22,037 nt of DNA from a virus: IMG/VR virus record IMGVR_UViG_3300034198_006615, positions 1 to 22,037 of that record. One strand, written 5' to 3'. Every line of letters starts with the position of its first letter. The stretch's first letter is position 1. Positions 1,816 to 22,037 of this stretch are shown in pieces. The notes beneath the pieces were generated by a model. That model was not told the origin of the DNA. It did not search any database and saw nothing but the letters and a program-made list of their open reading frames with translations. Position numbers and translations under genes: made by a program.

Positions 1816-2359
1816 CGCTACCGCCGTCGATCAAATTATTTCCAATGTCTCCAATTGCTCGGGATTCTGTCACAAATAAAACAAGGCCTTTCTTACCATT
1901 TGGATAGCCTGGAAGAACTTCATCTAATGCTGTGGGATGAACAGATTGTTGAACTAAAAATTTAACATTTTGTTTTCCAGATTTTTTAATAATGCTATAT
2001 GTTTGTTCTGTTGTTGTTGTTACATATTGCCAATCATCATTATCCCATTTTACATATATATCATACTCTGAAATTGCTGATTTTGATACTTCTTGATTAG
2101 TAGAGGTTGATAAAACAGAAGGGAGTGTCCAATATAATGTAATTGCATTTTCTGTAATATTAACAGAATTTGAAACAGAAATTCTTGTATCAGATGTTGT
2201 AATTATAATATCTTTTATATCTGACCATTCTGATACTCTATTTCTATCTTCTGATACTATTCTATATTTTATTTTATACCCAGAGGAGTTTGTAGACAAT
2301 TTGATAAGATTTCCCAAATCTTTTTTAAGAATTCTTACCTTTTTTATTGTTTCTGCCAT
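1808..2359 (-). CDS. Minor tail protein with Fn3-like beta domain
   Basis: This 183-residue, beta-rich protein has no signal peptide. Its first part contains YKIKYRIVSEDRNRVSEWSD, an arrangement like the strand pair of fibronectin-type-III modules. A second strand series follows: ITLYWTLP, ISEYDIYVKWDNDDWQYV, YSIIKK and VKFLVQQSVHP. Such modules commonly decorate tail tips and help bind cell-surface sugars. The start overlaps the stop of the fibre-like gene (GCATAATGG), indicating coupled translation. The assignment rests on strand pattern and on position between two fibre-like genes; a specific ligand cannot be named. Confidence 0.65.
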   Translation of the reverse strand: MAETIKKVRILKKDLGNLIKLSTNSSGYKIKYRIVSEDRNRVSEWSDIKDIIITTSDTRISVSNSVNITENAITLYWTLPSVLSTSTNQEVSKSAISEYDIYVKWDNDDWQYVTTTTEQTYSIIKKSGKQNVKFLVQQSVHPTALDEVLPGYPNGKKGLVLFVTESRAIGDIGNNLIDGGSVV

Positions 2360-3498
2360 TATGCAACACCCAAAGCAAACCTAAACTCTACATAATTATT
2401 TGTATTTGAGTCTTTTGTAATAACTGCACCTGTTGGATTTTGAATTACTGAATATCCAGTTAATCCATAAAGTGCATTTTCAGATGTTAAGTTTTCAAGC
2501 CTTATTCCATCTAGTAAAACATAATATTGATTACTTACAGCATTTGATTGATTTAAAATTGTTGTATAAATTTTAACAGTATTTGCTGCATTCCAGTTAA
2601 AGTCTGGAGTAACAAAAACATTACTAATAGGAGTCTTAACAACACAATATCTATTTACCGATAAATCATATTGACCATCTCCTGTTCCATTAACAACTGT
2701 TTGTTCAATTCTTGCACTCTTAGATGAATCACCATCTACAGAGAATTCAATAAGTAGTCTAATAATTTTAGGCTGAGAGATTGCACTACCATCTTTATTT
2801 ACAACAACAAACGCAGTTCTAATTTCATCAGACATAGAATTTCCAGAAAGATTTACGGTAGATCCAGTTTTTTGTAAATATTGTGCCCCGCTTCCAACTG
2901 AGAATCTATCATTAAGTAAAGAAATATTTGAAGAGTCTCCACGTAGCAAAATAATATTATTTAAAAATCTTCCACGTTCATATCTTGAAGTTCTTGTATC
3001 TTTAAAAAATATTGCATTATCAACATTTGTTTCTATTGCTTTACTAGATGACTGAATAATATCTAATGCAGAGGATCCTCCTAGGTGTGTAGAAATTGAT
3101 TCTGCACTTCCCAGAGATGTTCCATTATAAAATCTCCAACCTTCTATATTACTAAAAGAAAAAAGCATTTTACTATCATAGTTTCCAGCACTTTCATTAA
3201 ATCCAGCAGAAAATAAACCTAATTCTGAAAATTCATATCTTTCTTCTGAAGGTAGTTCTGCAGTAAGAACTATTTTAGATATTGTTTGCCCATTAACTTC
3301 CTCGGAAACAAATCCTCTAGAAGAAATTGGAACTCTAAACATTTCAAAATCCAATGCCGTTTTACTTGCAGTATTTGCTACTGAGTCAGATGTCTTATAT
3401 GGTCTGGCTCCGCAACCAATAGCAATATGGGAAGCATATGATGGAGCATGTCCAAGCAAATACTTTCCAATAATTGACTGTCCTTTATTTGTTATCAT
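2359..3498 (-). CDS. Tail fibre/minor tail protein with DUF3751-like N-terminus
   Basis: This is a 379-residue protein. Residues 1 to about 120 follow the pattern of the tail-collar fibre N-terminal domain: ITNKGQSIIGKYLLG, IAIGCGA, an FEMFRVPI strand, KIVLTAELP, then the ELGLFSAG signature. In that family this part attaches the fibre to the baseplate. Residues about 120-200 (WRFYNGTS to LLRGDSS) and 200-379 are beta-rich and could form a jelly-roll or carbohydrate-binding module (VVVNKDGSAISQPKIIRLLI; KIYTTILNQSNAVSNQYYVL). Translation starts at TAATG over the preceding stop, with GAGGA close upstream. Likely role: side or central tail fibre. The N-terminal call is firmer than the C-terminal one. 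Confidence 0.7.
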   Translation of the reverse strand: MITNKGQSIIGKYLLGHAPSYASHIAIGCGARPYKTSDSVANTASKTALDFEMFRVPISSRGFVSEEVNGQTISKIVLTAELPSEERYEFSELGLFSAGFNESAGNYDSKMLFSFSNIEGWRFYNGTSLGSAESISTHLGGSSALDIIQSSSKAIETNVDNAIFFKDTRTSRYERGRFLNNIILLRGDSSNISLLNDRFSVGSGAQYLQKTGSTVNLSGNSMSDEIRTAFVVVNKDGSAISQPKIIRLLIEFSVDGDSSKSARIEQTVVNGTGDGQYDLSVNRYCVVKTPISNVFVTPDFNWNAANTVKIYTTILNQSNAVSNQYYVLLDGIRLENLTSENALYGLTGYSVIQNPTGAVITKDSNTNNYVEFRFALGVA

Positions 3499-3962
3499 TA
3501 ATCCTCATCCCTATATATTGTACCACTAGTTGCTATTTCTATTTGAACTTGTTCTGTATCTTCCATATTTACTAATTCTATAATTAAGTCCCCCGTTGCT
3601 TGATCAATATATACATAGTTTGTTTTTGATGGTATCTTATCTTTAAGTTTAATCACAAATTGTTCAAAGTATTGAGAACTTGCCCTTTGCAAAGAAAGTA
3701 TGCTGTTTGCATTATATTCTTGATCTAAGGTTGAAAGGTATTTGATTGGTTGATAAACTACACTTTGTCCATTAACAGTATTATTTCTTGCAATATTGAT
3801 TAATTCCTGTCCTCCAATATCTTGAAAAACAAGATCTGTCATAACCTCTATTGGAACAACTGCATCATTAAACTGAACATATTGTGGGGTAGCACTTTTT
3901 ACTTGAATTGCTGCAGTTGAGTTTGCAGTTCCACTTACTGATGAAGGAATTGGATTTACCAT
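3498..3962 (-). CDS. Minor tail protein, small baseplate component
   Basis: This is a 154-residue protein located between the hub and the fibre gene. The N-terminus is a low-complexity linker (SSVSGTANSTAAIQVKSATP). The core includes VPIEVMTDLVFQDIGGQELI, then NTVNGQSVVYQPIKYLSTLD and YNANSILSLQR. The C-terminal strands are TNYVYIDQATGDLIIELVNM and VQIEIATSG. I recognise this combination from minor tail proteins encoded after the hub in actinophage-type tail modules, without a defined biochemical role. Start and stop are both shared with neighbours in TAATG overlaps, so it is tightly coupled to the tail-tip operon. Confidence 0.65.
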   Translation of the reverse strand: MVNPIPSSVSGTANSTAAIQVKSATPQYVQFNDAVVPIEVMTDLVFQDIGGQELINIARNNTVNGQSVVYQPIKYLSTLDQEYNANSILSLQRASSQYFEQFVIKLKDKIPSKTNYVYIDQATGDLIIELVNMEDTEQVQIEIATSGTIYRDED

Positions 3963-6900
3963 TAAATTTCACACAAATAGACATTCATATCAGGACCGCC
4001 TACCCCTTTCTGATAAGATATATTATATACTATATATCTAGTATCTTTTGATGCAACTAAGTCTAATCCGTTTTTAGAATAATCAATTGTAACTATATCT
4101 CCAAGTTGGAGCATTGGATTTGAGAATAGTTTTATTCCAACATTTTTCTTTGGTTTCATTACCTTATCAACAATCCAAGCCATTATATTTTCTGCATGAT
4201 CTTGTGTTTGAATATAAGGTGAATCTATTGTAAAATCACTATTTCCGTATGTCATTCTACTTAATTTAATTTCATTAAACTTTTCATCAAGTATTTCTGG
4301 GGACCTTAAAACTTTTGTTCCAGATAACTCTGGGTCTGCAAAATTTGCTTTCTTTTCAAAAAACTTATCAACAGAAAGTTCGTGGGTTGTATCTTGTGTA
4401 AATGTTATTCCTTGAATTCTAAGATAGTTTCCAGTTGTTTCATCTAAATTAATTGCTGAATCTGTGGAATTAAATATTAAAAATTCAGCACCATAGGCAT
4501 TTGCAGTAAATCCAGATACTACATATGACTTAATCATATTAAATGTAGGAGATAATTTTGCATATAATGCAGGCCATGCTTTATCATATTTGATATTAAA
4601 GTATGCAGCCTCACGCATAATAGTTCCAAATTCTTCAAAATACATAGAGTATCCTGGTGGAGTTTGAGCACTAATTTCAGATAAATACGATGCTTGAACC
4701 ATTCCGCTCACTGCATATTTTCTTAATGCCTCTGTTGCATTAATTTGTTTATCCCCAAAAACATCTGCTATAACTTTTGTTGCATCAAAAACAGTACTTG
4801 ATGAATAATTTTGAGACAAAGCATAAATATTTTCAAACATAAGTCTTGAAGAACCCCTAACAAATAATGCCATATTATTATATGCTGGAAGAGGATCATA
4901 ATCATCAACTACACTTACTAGGTTATTATTAATATATAAATAAAATTTTCTATGCGTAGAAGATATATCTGAGTACTCTACTGCTAAATCATAAACTGTT
5001 GGGTTTGCTTCTCCGTTAACTCGATATTGTCCTGTAAACTTTCCATCATCAACAAGTATATTTGCAATTCCGCCCCATAGTTTAATTGGTACTGCCTTGG
5101 TTGTTCCAGTTTGCTGTTTAATCTTATAAAAAACAATATTATTTAAATTAATTAATGGATCTCCATTTGAATCATTTTTTAAGTATGAAGAAATATTGGT
5201 TTCTGTTAGTGCATTAACTTCAAAATAATATCCAATATTAGTGCTAGGATTTAAAAGAACCGCAACACCTCCGCCACCACCAGAAATAGTTAGATTTTGA
5301 GAAGCCGTGGTACTTGGTAAACTATAATATGGCGTACTACCTATTGCTGTTTGACCTTGTTGATCCCCTACTTCAATTTTCCCAATAACCCTTAACCTTG
5401 TTCCGAAATGTTTGTATTTTGCAGTTTGTGCTGTTACAACTCCGTCAACTGCTGTTCCAGAAGGAGAAAGACTTTTATAAACATAAGAAATATTGTCAAT
5501 TGGATTTTCTCCAACATCGTAGGTTGGACCAGTAATTACAAGGGCAGAAGACTGCAAGGTTCCAATTCCCGTTGTATTTAATTTATTTACTTCTGTTTCA
5601 GTTCTATAATTTGAAGACATAAAGTTTCTTATAATTCCATTTCTATAAGAACCCTTTGCCTTTTCATTTGAAATTCCAGCAGGACCTACTTGTGTTGCTG
5701 GATAAGAAGTTGTTGTTTGTGTTCCAAATAAATAGTTACTATCCATATTGCATCCACGAACATTATTATTGTCTGACCAATAAGTTGGAAGTCCAGCAGG
5801 GTGGTATGTGATGTTTGTTCCAAATTGTGCACGACCATGTTTTGCAACAGCACCATTCTTCATCATTGTAATTCCATTAACAGTTTCATAATATGGCTCT
5901 GAATAAATTCTTACAAGTCCAGTTGGGTATATTTTTCCATTAAAACTTATATTTGAAAAATATTTTTGATATTCTTCATTATCAGATATCCATATATTCC
6001 CATATCCTGGTACAGAAAATTGAACAGCATCATATCTAATTATTTCACCATTGGCATAAACATAACCCTGATATCTTGTGATCCAATAAATATTTTCACC
6101 AAAATTAATAATATTATTTTGCAAAACTCTTTCAACAACTGTTGGGGGGTTTATTGTTAATTCATTGTTTAGTGGATATGCACCAAGGACGTAACTTCCC
6201 ATATTTGATGCTTTTGCGTTTACCGATTTAGTGTTTTCAGTTCCAGAAACTTCCCATAAAAGGGCTGGCTTATATACCCAAGTTTTATCCTGATCTACTA
6301 AAGTTGACTGCTTAATGCTGGAATAAGATCTTTGAATATATCTTTCAGTATAATTAATTCTTCCATTATTAAATACTTTTTTGTCAACAGAAGATAATTC
6401 AAGAATATTAGATTGCTTGTCTGATCTATCGGATCCAATAAGTTCCATATTTGTTGCTCTATCCGTTTGTGATGGAGTCATAAAATTTTTACTCATAATA
6501 ACTAGATTATTATATTCATCAAAAAACATTGCCGTCTGTGTTGCAAGTGCTAGTTGATTTAATACTTCAGCAACATTTTGATTTGGTGCTACAAAAAAAT
6601 ATGGAATAACTGGATCTACTTCTCCAGAGGTTCTTCTAAAAACATAATTACTAAAGCCAATACCATCTAATAAAATGCTAATTGCATAACTTAAAGAAAC
6701 ATTTGTTAATAATAACTCTGGAGCCGTGTTGGATTCAAGATAAAAGAAAAAATCTCTTAAATCTAATGTAATCTTTCCATTTGAAATATCCATTTTTGGA
6801 ACTGCATCTGAATACAAGGTTTTAACAGGAATATAATAATTATATCCACCAACATCAATGATTCCTTCATAGAATATAATTTTAATATTTTTACCTACAT

Positions 6901-8338
6901 AATTTGAAATTAATGATTTAGAGTTATTGTTATTAAATGCATTATCATAATCTAAAATTTGCAAACTTCCAGTAGAGGCAAGCAATTGACCTACTGGTAT
7001 TGAAATATTATTTAAATCTGCTAAAGATTTTGTAACTGAATAGTCTAAGACATAATCAGAAATATTTGCAGCAAGTCTTGGAGACATTTCAATTAAGTCA
7101 AAAGTTGAGTCGAATTTATTCATTGTATCTACAACAATTCTTATGCCACGAATCTCTTCTACTTCCCTATATGTTGTTTCACTTGACTCAATAAAAAAGT
7201 CTGGATCAACAAGAGTTCTTACAAAATGTGTTTTGTCATAAAGTTTCTCATCAGAAATTTCCCAGCCATACTCTGCAGAAAAAATATCGTATGTTGAAGT
7301 TAAAACATTCCAAATATAAATAGATCCTCGACTTCCATTTGAAACAAGCCAGGCAAATCCTGGACGTGCTACATCTGGAAGCAAGTTTTTATTTGCAAGT
7401 TTGCCCATATATATAAAATTATCTTTATACTTTTGTGGTATCTTTAACCCATAAGATAATTCTAAATGTCCATCTGAATTAAAAATATTAGAGCCATCTA
7501 ATTTTTTTGAATTTTCATCAAAAGATTTTATGCTTTTCCAAGTATTATTTTCTTTAAGAACCTGAATTTGCCATTTAACTGGAACAGTCATATTTGCTGT
7601 GCCATATAATGGGTCTGCAATAGATACACCATTTGCGATAAATGGTCCTAGGTCCGAAGACCCTGTATTTGTTTGAACCTTAACTGTTAATCTATTTGCA
7701 AAAATATTTTCTTTATATACAACGAATGGAGCAGTATCATCAATATAGTTTGATGATTGATAAATAATATTCGCTATTCCACGATCTTGATTGTTTTCAG
7801 TTCTATAAGAAGTCCAATATTTAAATACATCATCTTTTGAAGACATATAGTATCTTGGTCTTTGCACAAAATCATAACTTGCTTTATTTATTGTTGTTTG
7901 TATTGCTGCATCTGATTGAATCATAGAGGCTACAGAAAAATTATTAAAATTATTACCCAAAAAATACATAGCCTTGTTAATTCCAGACCTTGGTCTGAAT
8001 GGTTTTATACAGTCTTCAAGTGAATACAATTGCTTCATTTTATCATTTGAAGATATAAAAACTTGTGGAATATCTAAATTATCATATCCACCATCAAAAA
8101 CTATATCTGCAGAAGTTGCATTAGTATAAAAATTACCAACATCTGATGAATCAAATTTACTCATTAAGTCTTTATATGTTGAGTCTGTTGTTATTCTTGA
8201 TACAGGTCTGTAGCGATAATTACCCAAAAGTTCTATATTATCTGGCGTATTTAAATTCCATTCAGAAACAACAACGCTTTTTGTTTTAATAGTAGAAGAA
8301 GTTTCTAGGTGTTGTTTTAATGTATCATCAGACCACAT
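3962..8338 (-). CDS. Large tail hub/minor tail protein with lectin-like insert
   Basis: This 1458-residue protein is encoded one base after the Dit-like gene's stop. The N-terminus (EWNLNTPDNIELLGNYRYRP) and a long beta-rich stretch to about residue 500 look like stacked structural modules. Residues about 540-620 (ELLLTNVSLSYAISILLDGI, FVAPNQNVAEVLNQLA, FFDEYNNLVIM) match the central baseplate-hub pattern. Residues about 970-1180 resemble a laminin-G/ConA-like lectin fold (HFGTRLRVIGKI, YYFEVNAL, YLYINNNLVSVVDDYD, LMFENIYAL). The C-terminus (LQLGDIVTIDYSKNGLDLV to MNVYLCEI) is typical of hub proteins. It should sit at the tail tip, below the tape measure, and is a prime receptor-binding candidate. 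No peptidase or lysozyme active site was recognised. Confidence 0.8.
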   Translation of the reverse strand: MWSDDTLKQHLETSSTIKTKSVVVSEWNLNTPDNIELLGNYRYRPVSRITTDSTYKDLMSKFDSSDVGNFYTNATSADIVFDGGYDNLDIPQVFISSNDKMKQLYSLEDCIKPFRPRSGINKAMYFLGNNFNNFSVASMIQSDAAIQTTINKASYDFVQRPRYYMSSKDDVFKYWTSYRTENNQDRGIANIIYQSSNYIDDTAPFVVYKENIFANRLTVKVQTNTGSSDLGPFIANGVSIADPLYGTANMTVPVKWQIQVLKENNTWKSIKSFDENSKKLDGSNIFNSDGHLELSYGLKIPQKYKDNFIYMGKLANKNLLPDVARPGFAWLVSNGSRGSIYIWNVLTSTYDIFSAEYGWEISDEKLYDKTHFVRTLVDPDFFIESSETTYREVEEIRGIRIVVDTMNKFDSTFDLIEMSPRLAANISDYVLDYSVTKSLADLNNISIPVGQLLASTGSLQILDYDNAFNNNNSKSLISNYVGKNIKIIFYEGIIDVGGYNYYIPVKTLYSDAVPKMDISNGKITLDLRDFFFYLESNTAPELLLTNVSLSYAISILLDGIGFSNYVFRRTSGEVDPVIPYFFVAPNQNVAEVLNQLALATQTAMFFDEYNNLVIMSKNFMTPSQTDRATNMELIGSDRSDKQSNILELSSVDKKVFNNGRINYTERYIQRSYSSIKQSTLVDQDKTWVYKPALLWEVSGTENTKSVNAKASNMGSYVLGAYPLNNELTINPPTVVERVLQNNIINFGENIYWITRYQGYVYANGEIIRYDAVQFSVPGYGNIWISDNEEYQKYFSNISFNGKIYPTGLVRIYSEPYYETVNGITMMKNGAVAKHGRAQFGTNITYHPAGLPTYWSDNNNVRGCNMDSNYLFGTQTTTSYPATQVGPAGISNEKAKGSYRNGIIRNFMSSNYRTETEVNKLNTTGIGTLQSSALVITGPTYDVGENPIDNISYVYKSLSPSGTAVDGVVTAQTAKYKHFGTRLRVIGKIEVGDQQGQTAIGSTPYYSLPSTTASQNLTISGGGGGVAVLLNPSTNIGYYFEVNALTETNISSYLKNDSNGDPLINLNNIVFYKIKQQTGTTKAVPIKLWGGIANILVDDGKFTGQYRVNGEANPTVYDLAVEYSDISSTHRKFYLYINNNLVSVVDDYDPLPAYNNMALFVRGSSRLMFENIYALSQNYSSSTVFDATKVIADVFGDKQINATEALRKYAVSGMVQASYLSEISAQTPPGYSMYFEEFGTIMREAAYFNIKYDKAWPALYAKLSPTFNMIKSYVVSGFTANAYGAEFLIFNSTDSAINLDETTGNYLRIQGITFTQDTTHELSVDKFFEKKANFADPELSGTKVLRSPEILDEKFNEIKLSRMTYGNSDFTIDSPYIQTQDHAENIMAWIVDKVMKPKKNVGIKLFSNPMLQLGDIVTIDYSKNGLDLVASKDTRYIVYNISYQKGVGGPDMNVYLCEI

Positions 8339-8339
8339 T

Positions 8340-9002
8340 TTATACTTCTTCCAAATTAATTGTAATATCCCAAAGGTCCATTAGGTTTCCACGCTTTTTA
8401 ATGTTATAATTAAATCCAGAAATATAAACTTCAACAACTTCATTATAATATTTCATCATTTTAAAGCGTGTGTCATTTCCAACAAATTGATAATTATTAT
8501 CATAAGCCAAAAACATATAGAATGGTCCTACGTGTGTTTTATACCAATTTAATAAGTCTGCTCCTCCTGCTCCACCATCTACTGTATGATCTGATAAACC
8601 TGTTGTTGGTTTTCCAGTATCATTAAAATTAGGTAAATCAGAAAAAGATCTTGAAGGCAAATCTGACCAAGCCAAATCAAACTTTAACTTATCTGCGATA
8701 TGATATGATCTCATTTTACCATTAATTGTTCTTTCTCTTTTTTCAATACGATCTGTTGAGATTCCCAAAGGTCCACGATTATGATCAGATAAAATCATAA
8801 ATTGATTCAAATCTGATAAAGATAGTCCAGAAGGATCTGAGCCAATTTCATGTCCAGTCGGTGTATAAACAGAAATTGTTTTTTGAGGGTCTGATGGATC
8901 AGGAATTGTTTCTAGAGTTCCATCATTATTAGACCATAGGATTGCTTGTGGTCTTGAATACTTACTTCTATTTAAAAGATATGTAGCACTATTGAAAGTC
9001 AT
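8340..9002 (-). CDS. Distal tail (Dit)-like protein
   Basis: This 220-residue protein lies immediately after the tape measure and before the hub, the classical place of the distal tail protein that forms a ring at the tail tip. Visible features are DRIEKRERTINGKMRSYHIA (a strand-turn-strand), LKFDLAWSDLPSRSF, an aromatic LLNWYKTHVGPFYMFLAYDN segment, and a C-terminal pair VVEVYISGFNYNIKKRG / LWDITINLEEV. The last elements resemble the N-terminal-barrel type strands of Dit proteins, but similarity is weak and order is the main argument. The start overlaps the tape measure stop in TTTAATG, with AGGGGG upstream as ribosome binding site. Confidence 0.65.
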   Translation of the reverse strand: MTFNSATYLLNRSKYSRPQAILWSNNDGTLETIPDPSDPQKTISVYTPTGHEIGSDPSGLSLSDLNQFMILSDHNRGPLGISTDRIEKRERTINGKMRSYHIADKLKFDLAWSDLPSRSFSDLPNFNDTGKPTTGLSDHTVDGGAGGADLLNWYKTHVGPFYMFLAYDNNYQFVGNDTRFKMMKYYNEVVEVYISGFNYNIKKRGNLMDLWDITINLEEV

Positions 9003-12000
9003 TAAACTCTTTGCCCCCTAATTTTTTGTTGTTCAATTCTTTGCAACTGAACCATTACAGCATTTGCAATATCATCTGGTTGAGCATTAGACGAATTAAC
9101 ATTTACACTCAGACTATAATTATACACTGAATCACCATTTATATTTTTTGTTCCTTCATTTATTGCACGAAGATTATTTACACCAAAATTATCTACTCCA
9201 TATTTAGTTACAATAAACTCACCTGGAGTTAACATTGCTGGAACAGTGTCTGTTCCAATTGCTTTCATTGCAAATCCACCTGAAGCAAGATACTTCGGGA
9301 TAAGTCCTCCAGAGGAAATTGCATAGGCTGAAAGGGCACCGTGAGGAAGTACTGGCTCTTTTGGTATTGGCGTAGGCGTAGGCGTAGGCGTAGGAGTAGG
9401 CGTTGGAGTTGAGGAACTGCCTGGACGACCATTAGGATATTTGGCTTTTTGTGCAAACAAAATAGAGTTAGCAAGTCCATTATCTCCATCTTTTCTAGCA
9501 TTTTCTGCCCTAGTTGTATAAGAGTCATAGTCTTTTTGTGATGCTAATAACTCTTGGTCTGCAGTTGAAGTAGATGGCGGAGTTCCTGTAGAACTAAATT
9601 CTGTTACAATTTTATTAACTATCTCATGAATTTCTTTAGTTGTAATAGTGCTACCGTCTGCACCCATATATTGACTTAATGCATCAACAATTGATGTCCA
9701 GGTGCTTTCAACAATTTTTCCTGTTGCGAGTGCCCCAGCCAAGGATGCTTTCATAGTCTTGTCATTTGCTAATTGGGCAGCATCAATCTTAAGTTTCATA
9801 TCATCCCATTCAGTTTTTGTCAAACCTAAGACTTTAAGATTTTCTTTTGCTGTAGCCAACTTTTTATTATCTGCATCTAATGTATCTTGTGCATCTTTTA
9901 ATAGTTTATTTCTTTTATCTAATTCATCATTGAGTGTAGTTAATTGAGTTTGTAATGCTTTCATTTTTAGGTTTTCAGCATCTAAAGCATCTTGTGCAGT
10001 TTTAAGTGCTCCTTGCTGAATTCCATATATTGTTTCACTAATTGTCCATTGTTCTTGTTCAATTTGAACCCTTGTTTTTCCTTCATCATTTGTTAATTTA
10101 GATAGTTCATACTGTCGGGCTACATCTATCGATTTTTGTTGACTTGATAATGCAGTTGTTGCTTCCTGTGCTCTCATATCCTGTGCAGCCTTTGCTGCTG
10201 CAGAGATATCACCAGATGTAATTGCGTCTGCCAAAGTTAATTGTGATTTTTGTGAACTTACTATTTGATCATTAATCGTAGAGATTTCTGAAAGAGCCTT
10301 TGTTTGCGTATCATACTTATCATTGATTGCTTGTGCAGCATGATCCATAAGTTTAAGATCGTGTGATAATTTGTCATCTCTTATCTGTTGATTAGCAATT
10401 AATTGATTTGCAGCATCTACTGCCTTTTGTTTTTCATCAATTAATGCTTGTTCAGCCTTTATTTCAACATTTTTTGAATCAATTAAATCTTGTTCTAATT
10501 TGATGTTTTCTTGAGCACCATCAATAGCCAGTTGATCATTCTTTAATGTGCCTGCATATTCCATATCAAGCATTCTAGACTTTATATCAAATAATTTATT
10601 TGCTGCATCATAGCCTGGTTGGAATGCTCCAGATATATCACCAGATTGTAATTTTGTAACAGTATTTTGCACTTGTGTATCTTGTATTTGCTTTAATGCA
10701 TTTGCAATTGATTGTGCATCTAATTTGCCAGCATTTAACTTTTGAATAAATCCTTGTGCAAGATTGTCATCCCCCAATATAGTTGCGATTGTTTCAGTAG
10801 AATAACCTATTGACTTTAATACACTAGCCAATTTTGTATATGCCTTTTCATTATCCAGTGCATCTTTGACTTTTGTTAAATATTCATTTGCAGCCCTTTG
10901 TTGATCTGTTTGTTTTTGCAATGCTATCTGAATTCTTTGTTTTGCCATTGCTGCTTTAATATCTGCATCTGTTTGTGTTCCACTTGCAACTGCTGCTGCA
11001 AACTCTGCATCTGATAATGCATTATATGCTTCTGCAGTTGTATATCCTAGCCCAGTCAACTTTGTTAGTGCTACAGATTGATTTTTTATAGATGTAATAA
11101 ACTTTTCTTGTGTATTTTCAAAATTACCAACGGCAATTGTGCTAAGGGCAGTGTTAAGTTTCTTACCCTCAATGGCTAATTTAATGCTTCCATCTTTTTG
11201 AATAGTAAATAATTTATTTTGATATTTCTTATAGTCTTCTGGACTTAACCCAGTAATAAAATCAATTAATTGTTCATTTGCACCTTGTTTACGAAGTTGT
11301 TGTCCAAGCCCCATAAACTCACCTTTTTTAGAAGAAAGCGAAGATGACATTACAACTTGCTGAGTTTTTTTATTATAAGAAAAATATTTATCCATTGCCT
11401 TCCAGGATTCATTCCATCCAGTTGTTAGAGCAATTTGTAATTGACGAACGTCCCTTAATCTTTTTATAATATCATCAAGGGGTGCTGCTGCTGGCGGATT
11501 ATTTGATCCTGAACCCTGTGGACCTGATGGAGGAGGGGCTGTTCTATCGTGTGCTTGAGTAGATGCCCATCCCATATCTTGAATATACTTTGCTATAAGG
11601 GCAACGTCTGACAACTTCTTTGAATAGTCAGCACCACCGTGTGCTCCAGTTTCTGTTAACCACTTCTTGTATGAATCAGATCCCATAATTTGTGCTGGCG
11701 GTATATTAATTAATGTTTCTACTGTTTTAGAATAAATTAATTTATCATTTTTACTTAATTTATCAAAATAAGTTGGATCAATAGAGCCCTTAAGTTTTGA
11801 ATCGATAGTAAGAAGAATGGTAGAACTTAAAGATTTTGATCCATTAATGCTATCAAAAATTGCTTGTAGGTGTGCTTGTGCTGCTGAATCTTTTTCATAA
11901 TAATTAACGGCTACATCTGCTGAGTATATGGCTGCACCCTTAGCAATATCTCCAAACAATGTTAATATTTTTTGTGCAGTTGCATCATCTTTTGCTAATG

Positions 12001-15000
12001 ACAACTGAGTTATTAACTGTTGTTGTAACGCTGGTTTAGTATTTCCATTTTGATCAACAAACATTGACATTACTTGAGACATTTGGTTTGCAGTCGTTCC
12101 GCCAAACTTAGTAATGATTGTCATAACCTTTTGTGTTTGAACTTTATTTTTTGGATCAATTAAATTCATTAATTGTGCTGGATCAATTTCACCAGTAGAC
12201 ATTTTTAATGTTAAAATATATTCTTGACCACTGTTAAGCCCACCACTCTTACGAGCATCCGCTAATTGCTTTTGAGCAATATCCACAAATGCTGCAGAAT
12301 CTGTTCCTTTATATTTATCCTTAACTGCATTTTTTGCACCATTAAGAAGTGCTTCTTGATTTGATCCAGCCTTATTGTATGAATCTATAATGTTTTGATT
12401 AATTGTTGCTGCTTTAGAAACCAATTCATTTCTTTGTTTATCCCACGCAGCCTGTGCTTCTTTTTGTTTTGTAATATTTCCTTCAAGTTGATACTGTGCA
12501 ACCAACTTTTGATAATATAGGTCTAATGAGTCAACGGCTTCTTTATTTTGTTCTAATGCAATTTTTTGAGTTGCTACTGCTGCTCCAGCCATTGCTGCAA
12601 TTTGTTTATTATTTGCTTTATTGGCAAAATAACCTCCAATTGCACCTATAATTGCTCCAGTTGCAGCACCGACTGCAGTTCCAATTCCAGGAATAGGAAT
12701 TGCTGATCCAATCATTGCTCCTGCTACTGCACCGCCCAAAGCCATAGAACCTATAGAAACTTTTTGCATTGTTCCAGTGGCCATCATTCCACCAAACTTA
12801 TTGTTTCCAAGTGTCTTCATTGATCTATCTGCCTGCTTGCTTTGTTCATCCATTAAACGCATTCTTACGCCTAATGGATCCTTAGAAAGGTTTTCTCCAT
12901 TAGGGCCAACAAGGTCTGTAATCTCTGCCCTTAATTTAACTCCAAGTCCAGCATCTCCAAGTTTTGCTGAAATGTTACCTGCAATACTACTTGCCTCTGC
13001 AGTTGTAATTGCCCCAGATGTTACTGCAGATAAAAGTTGATTTTTAATTTGTTCTGCTGCTTCTTTTTTATTTCCTCCAGCAATGCCTTTTTGTGCTGCA
13101 GCAAGTAAATCTTTTCCAGCAGAAGACTGAACATATGCTTCGCCAAATGTTGTTTTTCCTGTTTGAGTAGAGTAAATCTTTAGAGAGTCTGCTCTTTGTC
13201 TATCCATTGCTTCGCCAGCAGAAACTCTCTTAGAAAATACTGACAAACCTCTAATACTTGAAGTACTTGGACCGAGTGCCTGATGTAATTTCATTGTTGC
13301 ATCTCTTGTTGAATTAAACTCTTGACGCAATTTCATCATTACGCCAACAGTTGCTGCAACTGCAATTCCTATTTGTCCAAATTTATTTGACATTAAGGGA
13401 GCAATTGATCCAATTACAGCAGCAAGCATTGCAATTTTTTGAGATAGTTGCCCCATAACACCAGGCAACATTGATCCAAACGATGCTATCGATGCTACTC
13501 CAAATGCTTTTTGACTTAAAGTTCCTGCAGATATTCCACTTGCAGAAGCCTTCATCTTAGAACCTAACTTTGAATACCAGTTTTCTTTAGGCATATTTTT
13601 AGAAACAATTGGAAGAAGTTTTGCTCCTTCTGGTGCAAGTGCATCAGGATTATAAATTTGAACCTGACCTGGTGCTCCTTGGGTACTTGCTGCAACACGA
13701 CGAACTCTTTTTGCTCCAGACTGCGTTGTTCCCTGCTCCATTGCAGAAATAGCATTAGCACCTACCTCTTTTGCAGCAGACTCTACAGTGCCTTGTTTAT
13801 TTTTAATTCCATTGGCCAAACCTTGTCCTACATCTTCTCCAATGTTTTCTGTTTCTTTTGATGGAGATTGTGTTCTAAATTTATCTTTTAATCTTGTAAG
13901 AATTGATGTAGAAACATCATCTGCAACCTGAACAAATTTTGTCTTATCCTCTCCTGGATTTCTTTGATATCTTTGTGTACGAAGCCTTGTCAAACCTCTT
14001 TGAATTCTATTTGGGGACAAATCTGATGAGTTTTCAGGTGTTGCTGGTAAATCAAGTCGTGCACTTGCTGAGTACATTGTTCCAGTTGCTGTTTTTTCAA
14101 ATGATGACTTCTTTTTATTTTCACTTGCCATAAACTTTGTATCATCAAGCATAGATCCCAACACGTTACTTTGGATTTGAAGTTCATGCTCATTTAAGGC
14201 AAGATTTTCTGTAATTTTTCTTCTTATCTCTAGTTGGTCTGCCTCTGAGGCACCACTTTGCTTAAGTTTTTCAAAATAAAGTTTTCTTGCTTCATCATTT
14301 TTAGCAAGAGTATCGCTCATTTCATTTTCCATACGTGATTGTGCTGTCCATACATCTGTAGACCATCCAGCCTGTAAGCCCTTATCAGTATTTGATAATG
14401 CTACTCCATGGGCTCTATCGACTTGAGACATTTGATTATAACTTCCTTCAGAAATTTTATTTCCAAACTGTGCCCTCATGTTAGCCTGGGTATTATCTGC
14501 AATTGCCTTTGCACGTTCATATTCTGCCTTACGTCCTTCATCTTCCATTTGCTTTTTAACTGTAGAAGATACGCCTGCTTCAGATGCAGAGTGTCCAACA
14601 ATTTTTTTATTTGGATCATTTGCAGAAACAATTTTATTTAATTTATGAGCACTTAATTCTGTATCATGTAATTCTTTTGCTGTAATTCTTAGTTCTTGTA
14701 TAAAGTCTTTTGCAGAAATCTTAGTCTCTTCTGCAAATCTAACTAATGTATCTTTAACTATATTAGAGGCACCAGCAACGCTTTCAGGGCCAGAGACAAG
14801 TCCATTAACAAGTCTTTGAATTTCATCCATATTTGTTTTTGATGTAAATGGCATATGGAATGATTCATCACCAACATCTAGTTGTCTTAATGGAATCCCC
14901 TTAATGTTTCCTTTTATGTACCCTGGAATAGTTCCATTCATAATTCCATTAATAAGGGTTCCATATTTTGAAACCTTATCTGCTGGAATAACTGCTTCTC

Positions 15001-17059
15001 CTGGAGAAAGCATTGCTGGTTGAACATCTCCAGCACCCTTTGGTCCAGGAACTTGGAATATTCCAGATGAAAGACCTAAGACTGGTTTTCCAGGAAGCAC
15101 TCCAGTTGTAGAAAATTGTCTTTGTTGTGAAATTGCCCTTGTATATGCAGCAGATAAAGAATTAACTGCATCTGCTTCAGATGTAAATGTTTGTATTAAC
15201 TTTGAATGAGTTTGATCAAGAGATGCTGCAACTGCTGCAGCCTGTAATTGTTCTTGAGTCATATAGGCTGTTTGTTCACCTAATACTTGACTTGATTCTC
15301 CTGCACGATTAAAAATATTTTTTACTGCAGAAAAACCTTTAATAATATTTGCAACACCATTGGCAAGCAAACCGAATGTCATCAAAAGAATTGGTCCAAG
15401 GCCAGCAAGAACTGTTGCCATTAAAACAACAAACTTCTTTGTTCCATCTCCAAGATTATTAAAATGCTTTAAAATATTTCCAACAAATTGAACTACTGGA
15501 GTAACTGCCTTTAAGAATTGCTCTCCAATTGGGGCTAATTGTGTTTTTAAATCTTGAACTTGTTTTTGGAATTTGTACATTGGAGAATCAGCAACTTTTT
15601 TCATTTCTCTTTCAGATAATATGGCAAGTTCTGCTGCTGTAGCATTTGCCAATCCTAGAACAGTTTGTGCTTGACTTCCTTGTTGAATTACATTTTGGAA
15701 CAATGTTGAAACACGGGCAAATTGAAACTTGCCAAACATCTTTTCAATTGCTTGTGCACGATTTAGTGGATCTAAAGTATTTAATGCAGTTGCTAAGTCT
15801 ACAACCATTTTCTTTGCATTACCAGCATCGCCTTGAACTAATGCTTGAAGATTAATTCCAAATCCAGAAAGCATAGTTGTTGCAGATTTTGTTGGATTAA
15901 TCATTGCTGCTAGAGCAGATTTAACAGTATTTGCTCCTTGTGCTGCACTAATACCACCTTCACGAAGTGCAGTCATAAAGAAGGCTAAATCTTTTACATT
16001 TCCTCCAAGTTGCTTAACAACTGGTGCAGCGATTGGGATAGCCGTTGTTAAATCATCAATATTTAAAATTGTTTGGTTTTCAACACCATTTAAAAAGTCT
16101 ATATTATTTGCGAGGTCTTTGGAAGCAACACCGAAGGTAGACGTAAGAGAAATTACAGTGTCTAATGCTTTTTGTTGATCTATACCTCCAAGAACAGAAA
16201 GCCTTGTCGCTTCATTTAATTGACTAATTAAATCTGTTCCAGTTTTTCCAGTAGCAGCAATTTTTGCAGCCAAGGCCATTGTATCTGATACTGAAACTCC
16301 ATATTGTGTAAACGTATCAGCCATTTTCTTGACATTTGAAAGGGCTTTTTGAGTATCTGCTGTTGTTGTAAACATGTCTCCATAGACACGCTTAAAATCA
16401 ATTGCTGCTTGCTCCATTTGCATAAATGTTTGTGCAGCCTTTGTTCCAAACATCATCAATGGTACTGTGAATCCAACAGTTAACTGACGTCCTGCCCATT
16501 GTGTATTTTTACCAAAGTTTAATAGGTTTGTTGATCCCTGTTTAAGGAGTTGATTTAAAATCTGTTGTTTTTGTGCAGCCAAGGCAGTCTTGGTTGACAA
16601 GTCATTCATATCAAGGCTTAAAGGGCGTACTGCGATACTTCTAATAGATCCGTTAGCATCTCTGCCTAACTTGATGTATTGTGTCTGTAAATCCTTTACA
16701 CGCTCTCTAGCAACCTTGCCAATAGTATCAAATTCAGACTTAAAAAGTTTTCCAAATGTTCTTGTTGCTGCACCAGTATATCTAAAATATTCTCCTGCTG
16801 AAAGTTTATTTTTTTCTAATGCATTTGTAAAGGATTCTGTTGTGCTTTGCACAGTTCTCATTGAAGCAGAGAATTTGCCTGTAAGGTTTATAGAGTTTAC
16901 AAGATTATTTTGTAAATTAAGCGATGCATTACTAGCAGCAGCACCGCCTTTAGCCATGGATGAGTGGAAGGCTGATATTTGACCTTGTAGTTGCTTTAGA
17001 TTTGCTAAAGCACCTGATGTGTCAATATTGACTTGAATATTAGACTGAATATCAGCCAC
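9002..17059 (-). CDS. Tape measure protein
   Basis: This is a 2685-residue protein starting at GTG (17059), with AAGAGGTG seven bases upstream. Residues about 183-540 form the TP901-type tape measure core (AGRQLTVGFTVPLMMFGTKA to MKKVADSPMYKF). Hydrophobic segments lie at about 541-570, at about 1173-1246, and in a glycine-zipper region at about 1433-1480 (GAVAGAMIGSAIPIPGIGT). A Pro-rich linker is at about 1837-1860, long coiled coils at about 2163-2273 and 2350-2410, and a (PT)n tract near 2550-2563. Two PAML(S/T)PGE motifs occur near residues 683 and 2613. It sets tail length and is ejected to help DNA cross the membrane. Length suggests a tail near 400 nm if the usual 1.5 angstroms per residue applies. 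No cell-wall hydrolase motif was seen. Confidence 0.95.
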   Translation of the reverse strand: MADIQSNIQVNIDTSGALANLKQLQGQISAFHSSMAKGGAAASNASLNLQNNLVNSINLTGKFSASMRTVQSTTESFTNALEKNKLSAGEYFRYTGAATRTFGKLFKSEFDTIGKVARERVKDLQTQYIKLGRDANGSIRSIAVRPLSLDMNDLSTKTALAAQKQQILNQLLKQGSTNLLNFGKNTQWAGRQLTVGFTVPLMMFGTKAAQTFMQMEQAAIDFKRVYGDMFTTTADTQKALSNVKKMADTFTQYGVSVSDTMALAAKIAATGKTGTDLISQLNEATRLSVLGGIDQQKALDTVISLTSTFGVASKDLANNIDFLNGVENQTILNIDDLTTAIPIAAPVVKQLGGNVKDLAFFMTALREGGISAAQGANTVKSALAAMINPTKSATTMLSGFGINLQALVQGDAGNAKKMVVDLATALNTLDPLNRAQAIEKMFGKFQFARVSTLFQNVIQQGSQAQTVLGLANATAAELAILSEREMKKVADSPMYKFQKQVQDLKTQLAPIGEQFLKAVTPVVQFVGNILKHFNNLGDGTKKFVVLMATVLAGLGPILLMTFGLLANGVANIIKGFSAVKNIFNRAGESSQVLGEQTAYMTQEQLQAAAVAASLDQTHSKLIQTFTSEADAVNSLSAAYTRAISQQRQFSTTGVLPGKPVLGLSSGIFQVPGPKGAGDVQPAMLSPGEAVIPADKVSKYGTLINGIMNGTIPGYIKGNIKGIPLRQLDVGDESFHMPFTSKTNMDEIQRLVNGLVSGPESVAGASNIVKDTLVRFAEETKISAKDFIQELRITAKELHDTELSAHKLNKIVSANDPNKKIVGHSASEAGVSSTVKKQMEDEGRKAEYERAKAIADNTQANMRAQFGNKISEGSYNQMSQVDRAHGVALSNTDKGLQAGWSTDVWTAQSRMENEMSDTLAKNDEARKLYFEKLKQSGASEADQLEIRRKITENLALNEHELQIQSNVLGSMLDDTKFMASENKKKSSFEKTATGTMYSASARLDLPATPENSSDLSPNRIQRGLTRLRTQRYQRNPGEDKTKFVQVADDVSTSILTRLKDKFRTQSPSKETENIGEDVGQGLANGIKNKQGTVESAAKEVGANAISAMEQGTTQSGAKRVRRVAASTQGAPGQVQIYNPDALAPEGAKLLPIVSKNMPKENWYSKLGSKMKASASGISAGTLSQKAFGVASIASFGSMLPGVMGQLSQKIAMLAAVIGSIAPLMSNKFGQIGIAVAATVGVMMKLRQEFNSTRDATMKLHQALGPSTSSIRGLSVFSKRVSAGEAMDRQRADSLKIYSTQTGKTTFGEAYVQSSAGKDLLAAAQKGIAGGNKKEAAEQIKNQLLSAVTSGAITTAEASSIAGNISAKLGDAGLGVKLRAEITDLVGPNGENLSKDPLGVRMRLMDEQSKQADRSMKTLGNNKFGGMMATGTMQKVSIGSMALGGAVAGAMIGSAIPIPGIGTAVGAATGAIIGAIGGYFANKANNKQIAAMAGAAVATQKIALEQNKEAVDSLDLYYQKLVAQYQLEGNITKQKEAQAAWDKQRNELVSKAATINQNIIDSYNKAGSNQEALLNGAKNAVKDKYKGTDSAAFVDIAQKQLADARKSGGLNSGQEYILTLKMSTGEIDPAQLMNLIDPKNKVQTQKVMTIITKFGGTTANQMSQVMSMFVDQNGNTKPALQQQLITQLSLAKDDATAQKILTLFGDIAKGAAIYSADVAVNYYEKDSAAQAHLQAIFDSINGSKSLSSTILLTIDSKLKGSIDPTYFDKLSKNDKLIYSKTVETLINIPPAQIMGSDSYKKWLTETGAHGGADYSKKLSDVALIAKYIQDMGWASTQAHDRTAPPPSGPQGSGSNNPPAAAPLDDIIKRLRDVRQLQIALTTGWNESWKAMDKYFSYNKKTQQVVMSSSLSSKKGEFMGLGQQLRKQGANEQLIDFITGLSPEDYKKYQNKLFTIQKDGSIKLAIEGKKLNTALSTIAVGNFENTQEKFITSIKNQSVALTKLTGLGYTTAEAYNALSDAEFAAAVASGTQTDADIKAAMAKQRIQIALQKQTDQQRAANEYLTKVKDALDNEKAYTKLASVLKSIGYSTETIATILGDDNLAQGFIQKLNAGKLDAQSIANALKQIQDTQVQNTVTKLQSGDISGAFQPGYDAANKLFDIKSRMLDMEYAGTLKNDQLAIDGAQENIKLEQDLIDSKNVEIKAEQALIDEKQKAVDAANQLIANQQIRDDKLSHDLKLMDHAAQAINDKYDTQTKALSEISTINDQIVSSQKSQLTLADAITSGDISAAAKAAQDMRAQEATTALSSQQKSIDVARQYELSKLTNDEGKTRVQIEQEQWTISETIYGIQQGALKTAQDALDAENLKMKALQTQLTTLNDELDKRNKLLKDAQDTLDADNKKLATAKENLKVLGLTKTEWDDMKLKIDAAQLANDKTMKASLAGALATGKIVESTWTSIVDALSQYMGADGSTITTKEIHEIVNKIVTEFSSTGTPPSTSTADQELLASQKDYDSYTTRAENARKDGDNGLANSILFAQKAKYPNGRPGSSSTPTPTPTPTPTPTPIPKEPVLPHGALSAYAISSGGLIPKYLASGGFAMKAIGTDTVPAMLTPGEFIVTKYGVDNFGVNNLRAINEGTKNINGDSVYNYSLSVNVNSSNAQPDDIANAVMVQLQRIEQQKIRGQRV
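9369..9410 (-). repeat. Hexanucleotide tandem repeat encoding (PT)n in the tape measure
   Basis: Seven consecutive 6-base units are present on the plus strand: four identical GGCGTA, then GGAGTA, GGCGTT and GGAGTT. They encode alternating Pro-Thr on the minus strand, continuing into an Ile-Pro unit. The tract separates the C-terminal coiled coils from the final PAMLTPGE domain and is probably a flexible linker. Changes by whole units would keep the frame. Confidence 0.85.
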
Positions 17060-17088: not shown

Positions 17089-17409
17089 TTAGTTTGTCAA
17101 ACCAAGTAGGGATGCCTCTTGCAACTTAATGCCTGATGCTTCTTCTACAATTTGATAAACTGCTGGAAGATCTAGGTTCTCTTCAAGAGCCTTTTGATCC
17201 TTTGCCAATTCTGGGTCATATTGCTGCATAGCAATTACAACACATTCCATTAGCAAATTCATAGACTTATCATTATCTTCTGCGACCTTAGCAATTCCCT
17301 CAAACTTCTTCATAAATGGACGAAGAAGAGAAATCTTAAGTGGTCGCACCTTAATTTCTGTTCCATCAATCATTTTAACTGTTTTTGTTTCATTAACAGT
17401 TGTTGCCAT
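17089..17409 (-). CDS. Short tail assembly chaperone (G-like), paralogue of the longer one
   Basis: This 106-residue protein lies directly upstream of the tape measure. It aligns along its length with the first 95 residues of the upstream 225-residue protein: both begin MAT, keep GTE at the same distance, then xVxPLKIxxLRxFM, a MECV/IECV helix, and FDL/LDL before YxIx(E/D)xAxGIK. It lacks the C-terminal T domain. In siphophages the short G form coats the tape measure during tail tube assembly. An AAAGGAGG ribosome binding site and an extended -10 site precede it, so it is probably made in larger amounts than the long form. No frameshift continuation exists: only 29 bases separate its stop from the tape measure. 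Confidence 0.85.
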   Translation of the reverse strand: MATTVNETKTVKMIDGTEIKVRPLKISLLRPFMKKFEGIAKVAEDNDKSMNLLMECVVIAMQQYDPELAKDQKALEENLDLPAVYQIVEEASGIKLQEASLLGLTN

Positions 17410-17415
17410 TAGTTT

Positions 17416-17423
17416 CCTCCTTT
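17416..17423 (-). promoter_or_regulatory. Strong ribosome binding site of the short chaperone
   Basis: AAAGGAGG on the minus strand, six bases before the ATG at 17409. Its strength contrasts with the complete absence of a Shine-Dalgarno sequence before the long paralogue. Confidence 0.75.
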
Positions 17424-17437
17424 AAAGGTTAATACCA

Positions 17438-17446
17438 ATTATAGCA
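17438..17446 (-). promoter_or_regulatory. Extended -10 promoter-like site before the short chaperone
   Basis: The minus strand reads TGCTATAAT in the 41-base gap between the two chaperone genes. Initiation about seven bases downstream would give a leader of roughly 20-25 bases carrying the AAAGGAGG site. No convincing -35 hexamer lies at the usual distance. It could drive the short chaperone, the tape measure and the tail-tip genes. Confidence 0.55.
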
Positions 17447-17457
17447 TATCCTATGCT
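17443..17457. repeat. Inverted repeat overlapping the promoter-like site
   Basis: AGCATA and TATGCT, six bases each, are separated by three bases and form a perfect inverted repeat. It spans the stop codon of the long chaperone and the first bases of the TGCTATAAT box. It could be a small operator or a chance palindrome; there is no U tract, so it is not a terminator. Confidence 0.4.
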
Positions 17458-18128
17458 GTAATTTCTTCATAATCTAACCCCATGCCGATACCAAAACCAG
17501 CCTGTGCAGCCTTTCTTCCAGTAAGTGTTGTTATATCGTTTGAGCCTTTACCTTTATATAAAATTCTATTTTTCATTTCTTCCCAAGCATCTTCTTTACC
17601 GCTTTGAGAATCAAGATCAACTCCTTGAATTGCTGCAAGAAACTTTTTTTCCTGATAATCTAAATCTCTTTGAGTACTTAATGTTGTGACAAGTTCTGGC
17701 ATAGACATACAATTTTCTAATTCTTCATAATTTTTCCATTTTCCAAGTCTAAATATTTCTGCTTCTAATTTTGCTAAATCTACATCTTCCCAACTTGAAC
17801 CATTGTCAGAAGGGGTATTAGAAATTTCATCTTCATTTGCATCAAACTTAATTCCACCAGCATAGTCAATAATAGAGTAGATTGTTTTTAAATCAAAATT
17901 GTCTTCTATTTCTTCTATTGAATTAGATATTTTTGGATAAAATTGTTTCATGCATATTCTTACACATTCTATCAAAACCATCATAATTTCATCATCTGTT
18001 TTTGCATTTTTCATAAAAGAAAATGCATCCATAAATTCACGTAAATATTTAATTTTTAATGGAGAGACTTCTAATTCTGTTCCATTATAAAGATGTACCC
18101 TGTGTATTTTAATAACTTCTGTAGCCAT
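17451..18128 (-). CDS. Long tail assembly chaperone (GT-like, unfused from any frameshift)
   Basis: This is a 225-residue protein. Residues 1 to about 95 are the G-like domain shared with the 106-residue paralogue downstream. After a linker (NTPSDNGSSWEDVD), residues about 113-225 form the T-like domain seen in actinophage chaperones: LAKLEAEIFRLGKWKNYEEL, a YQEKKFLAAIQGVDLD helix, and the ending GFGIGMGLDYEEITA. In lambda-type phages G-T is made by -1 frameshifting; here it is one open frame, and no slippery heptamer is seen at the domain junction. The start at 18128 is confirmed by alignment with the paralogue's N-terminus. No Shine-Dalgarno sequence precedes it, and an extended -10 box ends seven bases upstream, suggesting a leaderless mRNA. 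Confidence 0.85.
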   Translation of the reverse strand: MATEVIKIHRVHLYNGTELEVSPLKIKYLREFMDAFSFMKNAKTDDEIMMVLIECVRICMKQFYPKISNSIEEIEDNFDLKTIYSIIDYAGGIKFDANEDEISNTPSDNGSSWEDVDLAKLEAEIFRLGKWKNYEELENCMSMPELVTTLSTQRDLDYQEKKFLAAIQGVDLDSQSGKEDAWEEMKNRILYKGKGSNDITTLTGRKAAQAGFGIGMGLDYEEITA

Positions 18129-18135
18129 TATATAA

Positions 18136-18144
18136 AGTATACCA
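18136..18144 (-). promoter_or_regulatory. Extended -10 site placed for leaderless transcription of the long chaperone
   Basis: The minus strand reads TGGTATACT, then seven bases (TTATATA), then the ATG at 18128. Bacterial transcripts usually begin about seven bases after the -10 element, which puts the first base at the start codon. The site follows directly after the U tract of the major tail protein terminator. No -35 is visible; the region that would hold it is the terminator stem. Confidence 0.6.
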
Positions 18145-18148
18145 CTTC

Positions 18149-18180
18149 AAAAAAAATGCCCTCCCGAAGGAGAGCATTTT
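18149..18180 (-). terminator. Rho-independent terminator after the major tail protein gene
   Basis: In the minus-strand RNA a 12-base-pair stem (18180-18169 with 18164-18153) closes a UUCG tetraloop flanked by C-G and runs into eight consecutive U residues (18156-18149). One stem pair is G-U, which would be a C-A mismatch on the plus strand, so the structure serves minus-strand transcripts. It follows the major tail protein stop by about 18 bases. Confidence 0.92.
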
Positions 18181-18198
18181 CCTATCTAAAATATTAGA

Positions 18199-18858
18199 TT
18201 ATGCGATTACACGGTCAACGATCTTACCATAAGAACCGTTATCAATTGGAAGCATACGGAATGAAACAGCAAATTCTGTTGCTGCGTCACGCTTTGCTGC
18301 TACTGTTACGTTGTCAATTGACAATGCACGGTATCCAACATAGATACGCTCCTTATGTACTGAAGGATCTCCAGTTCCTGGTCCGACTGCAACAATACCT
18401 CTTTCCAGAGGAACTGCTCCTAGTTCTCCAGACTGTAGATCAAGTTCTTCAGAACCTGCTCCAACACCTGTACCAGTTGCAATTTCTGCCTTATCGGCAT
18501 CTGCTGCTGCGATTGAAACAAGAAGGTTTTCGAGGGTTGCTTCAGCAAATTGTGTTGCCATTGTAACCTTCATACCTTGCTTGAACAAACGAGCAACGTC
18601 AAGAACCTGATCAACCTTAACTTCACCGAAGTCAGGCATGAACTGTAGTTCAAGACCATTAGATGTGTATCCAACGTTACGCCAATCTGTAACGGTTAAT
18701 GCTTCTGTAGCAAGAGTTTCCTTGTAAGATTCTCCAGCAACGAAATCTGGTAGATCACCTTCGCCGATGCTACCTGACAAAGAACCATTAAATGTGTAAA
18801 GTGCTGCTGCACCCACGATAATGTTGTTCGATGTACCACGACTATAGTTATTAGCCAT
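18199..18858 (-). CDS. Major tail (tube) protein
   Basis: This is a 219-residue protein. N-terminal MANNYSRGTSNNIIVGAAAL and the internal VTDWRNVGYTSNGLELQFMP strand pair match actinophage-type tail tube subunits, in which a beta-sandwich hexamer stacks into the tail tube. The C-terminus (FAVSFRMLPIDNGSYGKIVD) fits the last strands. Between about residues 130 and 165 lies a Gly/Ala-rich acidic loop (ATGTGVGAGSEELDL) that could project from the tube. It has its own promoter-like site, an AGAGGTG ribosome binding site and a strong terminator, as expected for the most abundant tail protein. Base composition differs from neighbours: row 18361-18420 has 31 G+C of 60 and row 18661-18720 has 25, against about 18 in sampled hub sequence. 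Confidence 0.92.
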   Translation of the reverse strand: MANNYSRGTSNNIIVGAAALYTFNGSLSGSIGEGDLPDFVAGESYKETLATEALTVTDWRNVGYTSNGLELQFMPDFGEVKVDQVLDVARLFKQGMKVTMATQFAEATLENLLVSIAAADADKAEIATGTGVGAGSEELDLQSGELGAVPLERGIVAVGPGTGDPSVHKERIYVGYRALSIDNVTVAAKRDAATEFAVSFRMLPIDNGSYGKIVDRVIA

Positions 18859-21989: not shown

Positions 21990-22003
21990 TTATAAATTAG
22001 TAA

Positions 22004-22033
22004 GGGGAGCAGGAGCGTTAACTCCTACTCCCC
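22004..22033 (-). terminator. Strong hairpin, probable terminator of the upstream (head gene) transcript
   Basis: In minus-strand RNA, 22033-22022 pairs with 22015-22004 over 12 base pairs around a six-base UUAACG loop. One pair is a G-U wobble that would be a C-A mismatch in plus-strand RNA, so it belongs to leftward transcripts. The following sequence (CUUACUAAUUUAUAAU) is U-rich but not a continuous U tract, so it may terminate partially or protect a 3' end. Confidence 0.65.
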
Positions 22034-22037
22034 CTAA

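Follow-up and report, generated by a model that had tools for sequence, protein, structure and literature searches.

In phage lambda, the tape measure protein is coated by many copies of gpG and few of gpGT (about 30:1), the T part of gpGT binding the tail subunit (PMC5009743). Recoding by a frameshift to yield G and GT is conserved across a wide range of long-tailed phages. A different arrangement is described for some T4-like phages, which according to PMC10885494, citing Vladimirov, Gautam and Davidson (2022, doi 10.1016/j.virol.2021.11.003), have one short and one fused long chaperone gene instead of frameshifting; the two-gene principle is therefore already known. G and T domains homologous to those studied here, in the same gene order, occur in phages of the Stanwilliamsviridae (Coruscant, LukeCage, Circinus) and in Streptomyces phage Francob, where they form two ORFs: a single G gene and a T ORF in the −1 frame that overlaps the G end. 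In most of these phages a terminator and an extended −10 element precede the first gene, and none has a paralogue of the G gene.

Here we analyze a 22,037-nucleotide stretch of viral DNA (IMG/VR record IMGVR_UViG_3300034198_006615, positions 1 to 22,037; the whole stretch is referred to as the window) that carries a separate short chaperone gene next to a long fused one. We propose that a two-gene tail assembly chaperone system has very probably replaced the −1 programmed ribosomal frameshift in a large group of uncultured bacterial viruses to which the window belongs. As far as the arrangement in T4-like phages is described, the likeness lies in a separate short gene, a long fusion of the short part with a downstream part, and no frameshifting. 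However, those phages are myophages, whereas the window's group is related to the actinobacterial siphophages of the Stanwilliamsviridae, and it has both sister lineages that use frameshifting and conserved signals that would set the ratio of the two products.

On the minus strand of the window, the tail tube gene is followed by the long chaperone gene, the short chaperone gene and the tape measure gene (Table 1), in synteny with annotated phages; the tail tube gene sits where Coruscant and other phages have their annotated major tail protein. Both chaperones match phrog_10504 (residues 1–102 in the long protein), the long protein also matches phrog_10474 through its C-terminal domain (residues 131–196), and homology to annotated tail assembly chaperones reaches a tblastn E-value of 2e-34. 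As in lambda, the genes lie between tail tube and tape measure, the N-terminal G domain is common to the short and long products, and T is confined to the long one; unlike lambda, the window has two genes and two promoters, with no slippery site and no overlapping −1 frame. By homology and gene position, together with a weak structural match to HK97 gp13, the pair is assigned the predicted role of G and GT tail assembly chaperones. The downstream tail genes (2359–9002) are tightly packed and include a 1458-aa minor tail protein (phrog_10359, 3962–8338) and a 379-aa tail protein (phrog_9983, 2359–3498). The window contains no Rfam match and no tRNA gene.

Table 1. Features of the chaperone locus in window coordinates.
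Feature	Position	Strand	Description
Tail tube (major tail) protein gene	18199..18858	-	Upstream neighbour; matches phrog_2175 and phrog_885 major tail protein
Intrinsic terminator between tail tube and long chaperone genes	18150..18183	-	MFE −23.3 kcal/mol for a 61-nt stretch, z −5.6, T run
Weak extended −10 of long gene, TGGTATACT	18136..18144	-	7 nt before ATG, without Shine-Dalgarno
Long tail assembly chaperone gene	17451..18128	-	ORF, 225 aa, ATG; G domain ~residues 1–98, T domain ~residues 111–225, one frame
A AAA AAG heptamer	17643..17649	-	T domain of long gene; sole classic slippery heptamer noticed inside that gene
Consensus extended −10 of short gene, TGCTATAAT	17438..17446	-	28 nt before ATG
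Shine-Dalgarno of short gene, AAAGGAGG	17416..17423	-	6 nt from ATG
Short tail assembly chaperone gene	17089..17409	-	ORF, 106 aa, ATG; G domain only, paralogue of long gene's N-terminus
Tape measure protein gene	9002..17059	-	2685 aa, downstream neighbour; phrog_10030 tape measure, E 7e-83; PhageMin_Tail

A preliminary description of this DNA had proposed that the chaperone genes are duplicated, a proposal that unrelated N-terminal domains would have contradicted. Both ORFs are present at this locus, and the G domains of the long and short proteins are related, with 42% identity over 96 aa (BLASTP, E 3e-24). Following the suggestion to compare predicted structures, we built AlphaFold models from 80-sequence alignments (mean pLDDT 72 and 74); the shared domain has the same order of secondary structure in both proteins, namely two strands followed by helices at ~26–41, 46–64, 72–78 and 81–92, and in the long model, G and T are parted by a low-confidence linker (98–111). 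The best match of the short model in a viral structure library is A0A6J5QVP5, annotated as a tail assembly chaperone (TM ~0.8). Its resemblance to HK97 gp13 (PDB 2ob9) is weak (Z 4.1 over 88 residues, 8% identity, rmsd 5.3) and not diagnostic, and no solved structure matched the long model significantly (best E 0.66).

We searched 50,697 phage records for the chaperone family by tblastn and found it confined to Streptomyces phages (127 records) and three Rhodococcus records, the latter found with the long protein. Every matching record has one family site, and the paralogue pair occurs in none of the 130 isolate records. Four scans of IMG/VR yielded about 250 loci, including a number that cover overlapping parts of the same contig, and the loci were sorted into architectures with profile HMMs. 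Two layouts emerged among the 249 intact related loci. The pair layout, a fused GT gene followed by a separate G gene, is found in 206 (166 distinct sequences), so the search of related phages called for in the preliminary description did recover the same pair; the frameshift layout, a single G gene with an overlapping −1-frame T, is found in 43 (26 distinct), from isolated Streptomyces and Rhodococcus phages and from metagenomic phages. No locus of the 249 combines the two systems by having a separate short gene alongside an overlapping-frame T, and no classified locus has a fused gene for which the short gene is demonstrably missing. Since the loci were chosen by queries, these proportions are not those in nature, although the mutual exclusiveness of the layouts is unaffected; the loci also share kinship, and counts across them here and below are not independent. 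Loci outside the 249 were cut by contig ends, except for one (L064). In L064 (4700–5223), the conserved TATGCTATAAT promoter and Shine-Dalgarno after the fused gene now precede another gene, which has a weak match to PhyH-type oxygenases (E 0.004, below the Pfam cut-off), and the contig ends before any short chaperone gene comes into view. In another locus (L065), a gene with a recombination endonuclease VII domain (4759–5301, E 1.4e-20) lies between the long and short genes, and the promoter of the short gene still adjoins the short gene.

In the frameshift layout, T is always in the −1 frame relative to G, and 24 of the 26 distinct loci have a slippery heptamer in the correct register inside the G/T overlap (CCCAAAC/T or GGGAAAC/A); in the other two, Coruscant and LukeCage, the opening of the T frame coincides exactly with CCCGGAA, an unusual candidate slip site. 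In Coruscant (L001, 3001–3644), LukeCage (L002, 3001–3653) and Circinus (L003, 3001–3659), the annotation lists the T ORF as a gene of its own, with no joined CDS. In the window, by comparison, G and T of the long gene form one uninterrupted frame, as they do in all 206 pair-type loci, and there is no in-frame XXXYYYZ heptamer at the G/T junction or at the G end of either gene, which bears out the initial reading of this sequence. Across the 166 distinct pair-type loci, the tail of the short gene holds any XXXYYYZ in 6, and the −1 frame, counted from ten codons before the stop, is open for at most 29 codons, so that no hidden T is left there; a frameshift product from the short gene, which would have spoken against the replacement of the frameshift by duplicated genes, thus has no signature. 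On the heptamer counts and the short −1 frames, we rejected frameshifting at the junction of the long gene and at the end of the short gene. An internal start with a Shine-Dalgarno at the G/T junction, which would yield T alone, was likewise rejected (1 of 62 loci). The two-gene reading is strongly supported because in the nearest relatives a single gene with a −1 slippery site gives both G and GT, and this layout never accompanies the pair.

It could still be supposed that the long gene yields both forms by a −1 slip that truncates it, leaving the short paralogue as a redundant or differently specialised extra chaperone. Two observations lend themselves to this view: A AAA AAG in the T domain of the window recurs at the same position in 22 of 62 dereplicated relatives, and some XXXYYYZ occurs in 24 of 166 long-gene junctions. 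However, the first heptamer is missing in two thirds of the relatives and sits on an invariant Lys-Lys (K161 and K162), and slipping in the T domain would give a truncated GT rather than G, while the junction frequency is near the background of 9% per 60-nt window elsewhere in G domains, given the longer stretch scanned. The contrast in codons and promoters described below is, moreover, as supply from two genes predicts. We find a slip in the long gene scarcely credible, and A AAA AAG is probably a by-product of codon choice at conserved Glu-Lys-Lys codons.

Each of the two genes had been credited with its own promoter-like site and with very different ribosome binding, and both points hold across relatives. 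In the window alone, TGnTATAAT is seen 6 times where 2.45 are expected, which is not beyond chance, so weight can be given only to what is shared across loci. Ahead of the short gene, 164 of 165 loci have TGnTATAAT (mean of 1.3 and maximum of 4 in shuffles), which lies 23–38 nt from the ATG in nearly every case and is followed by AGGAG or GGAGG in 143 of 165 and by a 4-mer of AAGGAGG in 164 of 165. Upstream of the long gene, the looser TGnTAnnnT is found in 154 of 164 loci, against 27 in shuffles; its hexamers are mostly TAGAAT, TAAAAT, TATACT or TAAACT, with TATAAT in only 26. No Shine-Dalgarno precedes the long gene in any of 164 loci, whether sought as AGGAG, GGAGG or any 4-mer of AAGGAGG. 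A terminator-like hairpin stands before the long gene's promoter in 49 of 60 pair-type loci (1.2 expected), and no terminator was found between the long and short genes in any of the 60. The G genes of the frameshift layout have TGnTATAAT in 16 of 20 loci, 22–37 nt from the start, AGGAG or GGAGG in 13 of 20, and a terminator before the promoter in 14 of 20. These signals resemble those of the short gene, which suggests that the pair type keeps ancestral-looking signals on the short gene and weak, leader-poor ones on the long gene.

The position of the long gene's −10 bears on how its message is translated. The distance between this element and the ATG ranges from 5 to 15 nt and peaks at 6 and 9; it is 5–9 nt in 139 of 154 loci, the window among them, and 14–15 nt in the rest. 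In the textbook geometry, six bases separate the −10 from +1, so most transcripts of the long gene would begin at the ATG or within about three bases of it. Because of this spacing and the complete lack of a Shine-Dalgarno, the mRNA of the long gene is probably leaderless. The alternative, in which translation of the long gene is coupled to the tail-tube message or uses an unrecognised leader, would be compatible with a two-gene supply, and we consider it rather unlikely. It finds room in the 15 or so loci with a 14–15 nt spacing, where a short leader would fit and where some have an AGGG-like stretch, but it has to contend with a gap of 60–85 nt to the tail-tube gene that contains the terminator in most loci, and with the uniform lack of a Shine-Dalgarno. 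Similar elements occur elsewhere in the window: TGGTATAAT (1815–1807) lies 9 nt before the ATG (1797) of a 146-aa ORF without a family match, which is probably another leaderless gene (region 1357–1815), and at the window edge there is a strong hairpin (16 pairs, 22001–22036), with TGATATAAT (21989–21981) just before a 155-aa ORF starting at 21962, which hints at separate promoters for several late genes.

We scored codon adaptation against pooled tail-tube genes, leaving one out. The short gene scores 0.62, the tape measure gene 0.54, and the T and G domains of the long gene 0.49 and 0.45, respectively; in the window, the short gene and long G score 0.71 and 0.46. The short gene outscores long G in all 61 loci, and in 59 of 61 long G scores lower than the tape measure (Wilcoxon p ~1e-11). 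This bias, which is separate from the promoter evidence, agrees with it in direction and points to much short and little long protein.

Paralogues can diverge, and the long G domain has diverged strongly from frameshift-type G (branch 0.54), so one may ask whether the short protein has taken a new role, for example as an inhibitor or as a chaperone of another tail part, with the G:GT ratio no longer mattering in this group. We judge this very unlikely: in the G-domain tree it is the short protein, rather than the long, that stays nearest to the G of frameshift relatives, it keeps their promoter and Shine-Dalgarno, and its gene always adjoins the long gene and the tape measure gene, save for the insertion in L065 and the contig end in L064.

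Based on the conserved signals and the codon usage, we propose that the G:GT ratio is most likely set by promoter strength and mode of initiation. The ancestral-type layout, which survives in close relatives, consists of terminator, strong extended −10, Shine-Dalgarno, G gene, slippery heptamer, and T in the −1 frame. In the window's group two tandem genes stand in its place: (i) an upstream copy in which G and T are joined in one frame, predicted to supply scarce GT from a weaker promoter, a leaderless mRNA without Shine-Dalgarno and poorly adapted codons, and (ii) a downstream copy with G only, predicted to supply abundant G from a consensus extended −10, a Shine-Dalgarno and well-adapted codons. 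With no terminator between the genes, transcripts from the weak upstream promoter would include both, and those from the strong internal promoter would carry only the short gene and the tape measure gene. With both promoters active, more messages would be made for the short form than for the long, and the difference between leaderless and Shine-Dalgarno initiation, together with codon choice, would widen the gap between G and GT. By analogy with lambda, the tape measure protein would then be covered by abundant G and a few copies of GT, whose T part would bring in tail-tube subunits. What the DNA itself shows is the homology, the arrangement of the genes, their signals and the codon bias; from these we infer start sites, by way of the −10 positions, and expression levels, stoichiometry and binding. 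Promoter strength is judged from the hexamers, and the efficiency of leaderless translation may depend on the host. Two scans of prokaryote genome contigs for a related genome that would reveal the host found no relative.

The origin of the pair was addressed with trees of the G domain, the T domain and the tail tube protein. In the G-domain tree, long-G forms one clade (93/91) and the short proteins another (92/89), the latter nested among metagenomic frameshift-type G, and the Streptomyces G proteins fall outside. Frameshift-type loci thus surround the short clade, and they also occur in the outgroup phages, which makes frameshifting first and the gene pair later the simpler reading of the direction of change. 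A single tandem duplication fits as the origin of the pair. The main competing account is that the fused long gene came from a more distant phage and settled beside a resident chaperone gene that then lost its T, which would leave the functional reading intact. The free tree, where long-G joins outside metagenomic frameshift-type G plus short, is in keeping with such an acquisition, and so is the mosaic tail-tube tree, which needs three changes of architecture and thereby makes exchange between phages likely. For this reason we set the tail-tube tree aside as a species tree; it is not decisive. Yet a tree that joins long-G and short is equally good (lnL 2.9 higher; not rejected, p-AU 0.54), the long branch of long-G invites misplacement, and the T domains of the pair type cluster together within the metagenomic T domains, with the exception of one locus (L182), which falls without firm placement beside frameshift-type T domains. 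Acquisition of the long gene strikes us as doubtful, though a realistic competitor to tandem duplication.

Leaderless genes are described as widespread in mycobacteria in PMC4633059 and PMC3898074. Within the literature searched, which includes few subscription papers, the new elements are: (i) a large siphophage-like group with the two-gene arrangement, (ii) sister lineages that still frameshift, and (iii) a conserved contrast between probable leaderless and Shine-Dalgarno initiation. The comparison also suggests that G should be joined with the T ORFs that are annotated as separate genes in many Streptomyces phages. On balance, we favor the view that the group records a traceable, clade-wide switch from a recoding signal that fixes the ratio to control at the level of the DNA, in which a leaderless, weakly expressed GT gene and a G gene with consensus promoter and Shine-Dalgarno are conserved side by side, and leaderless initiation would be a maintained device for setting a ratio in tail assembly. 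On this view, the group and its relatives let one trace in evolution how a frameshift signal was lost. Sister lineages that reach the same proteins by frameshifting or by duplication may reveal which features of the ratio persist when the mechanism changes, and the pairing of a leaderless gene with a Shine-Dalgarno gene, kept in more than 150 loci, would provide a natural test of how phages fix the stoichiometry of their subunits.
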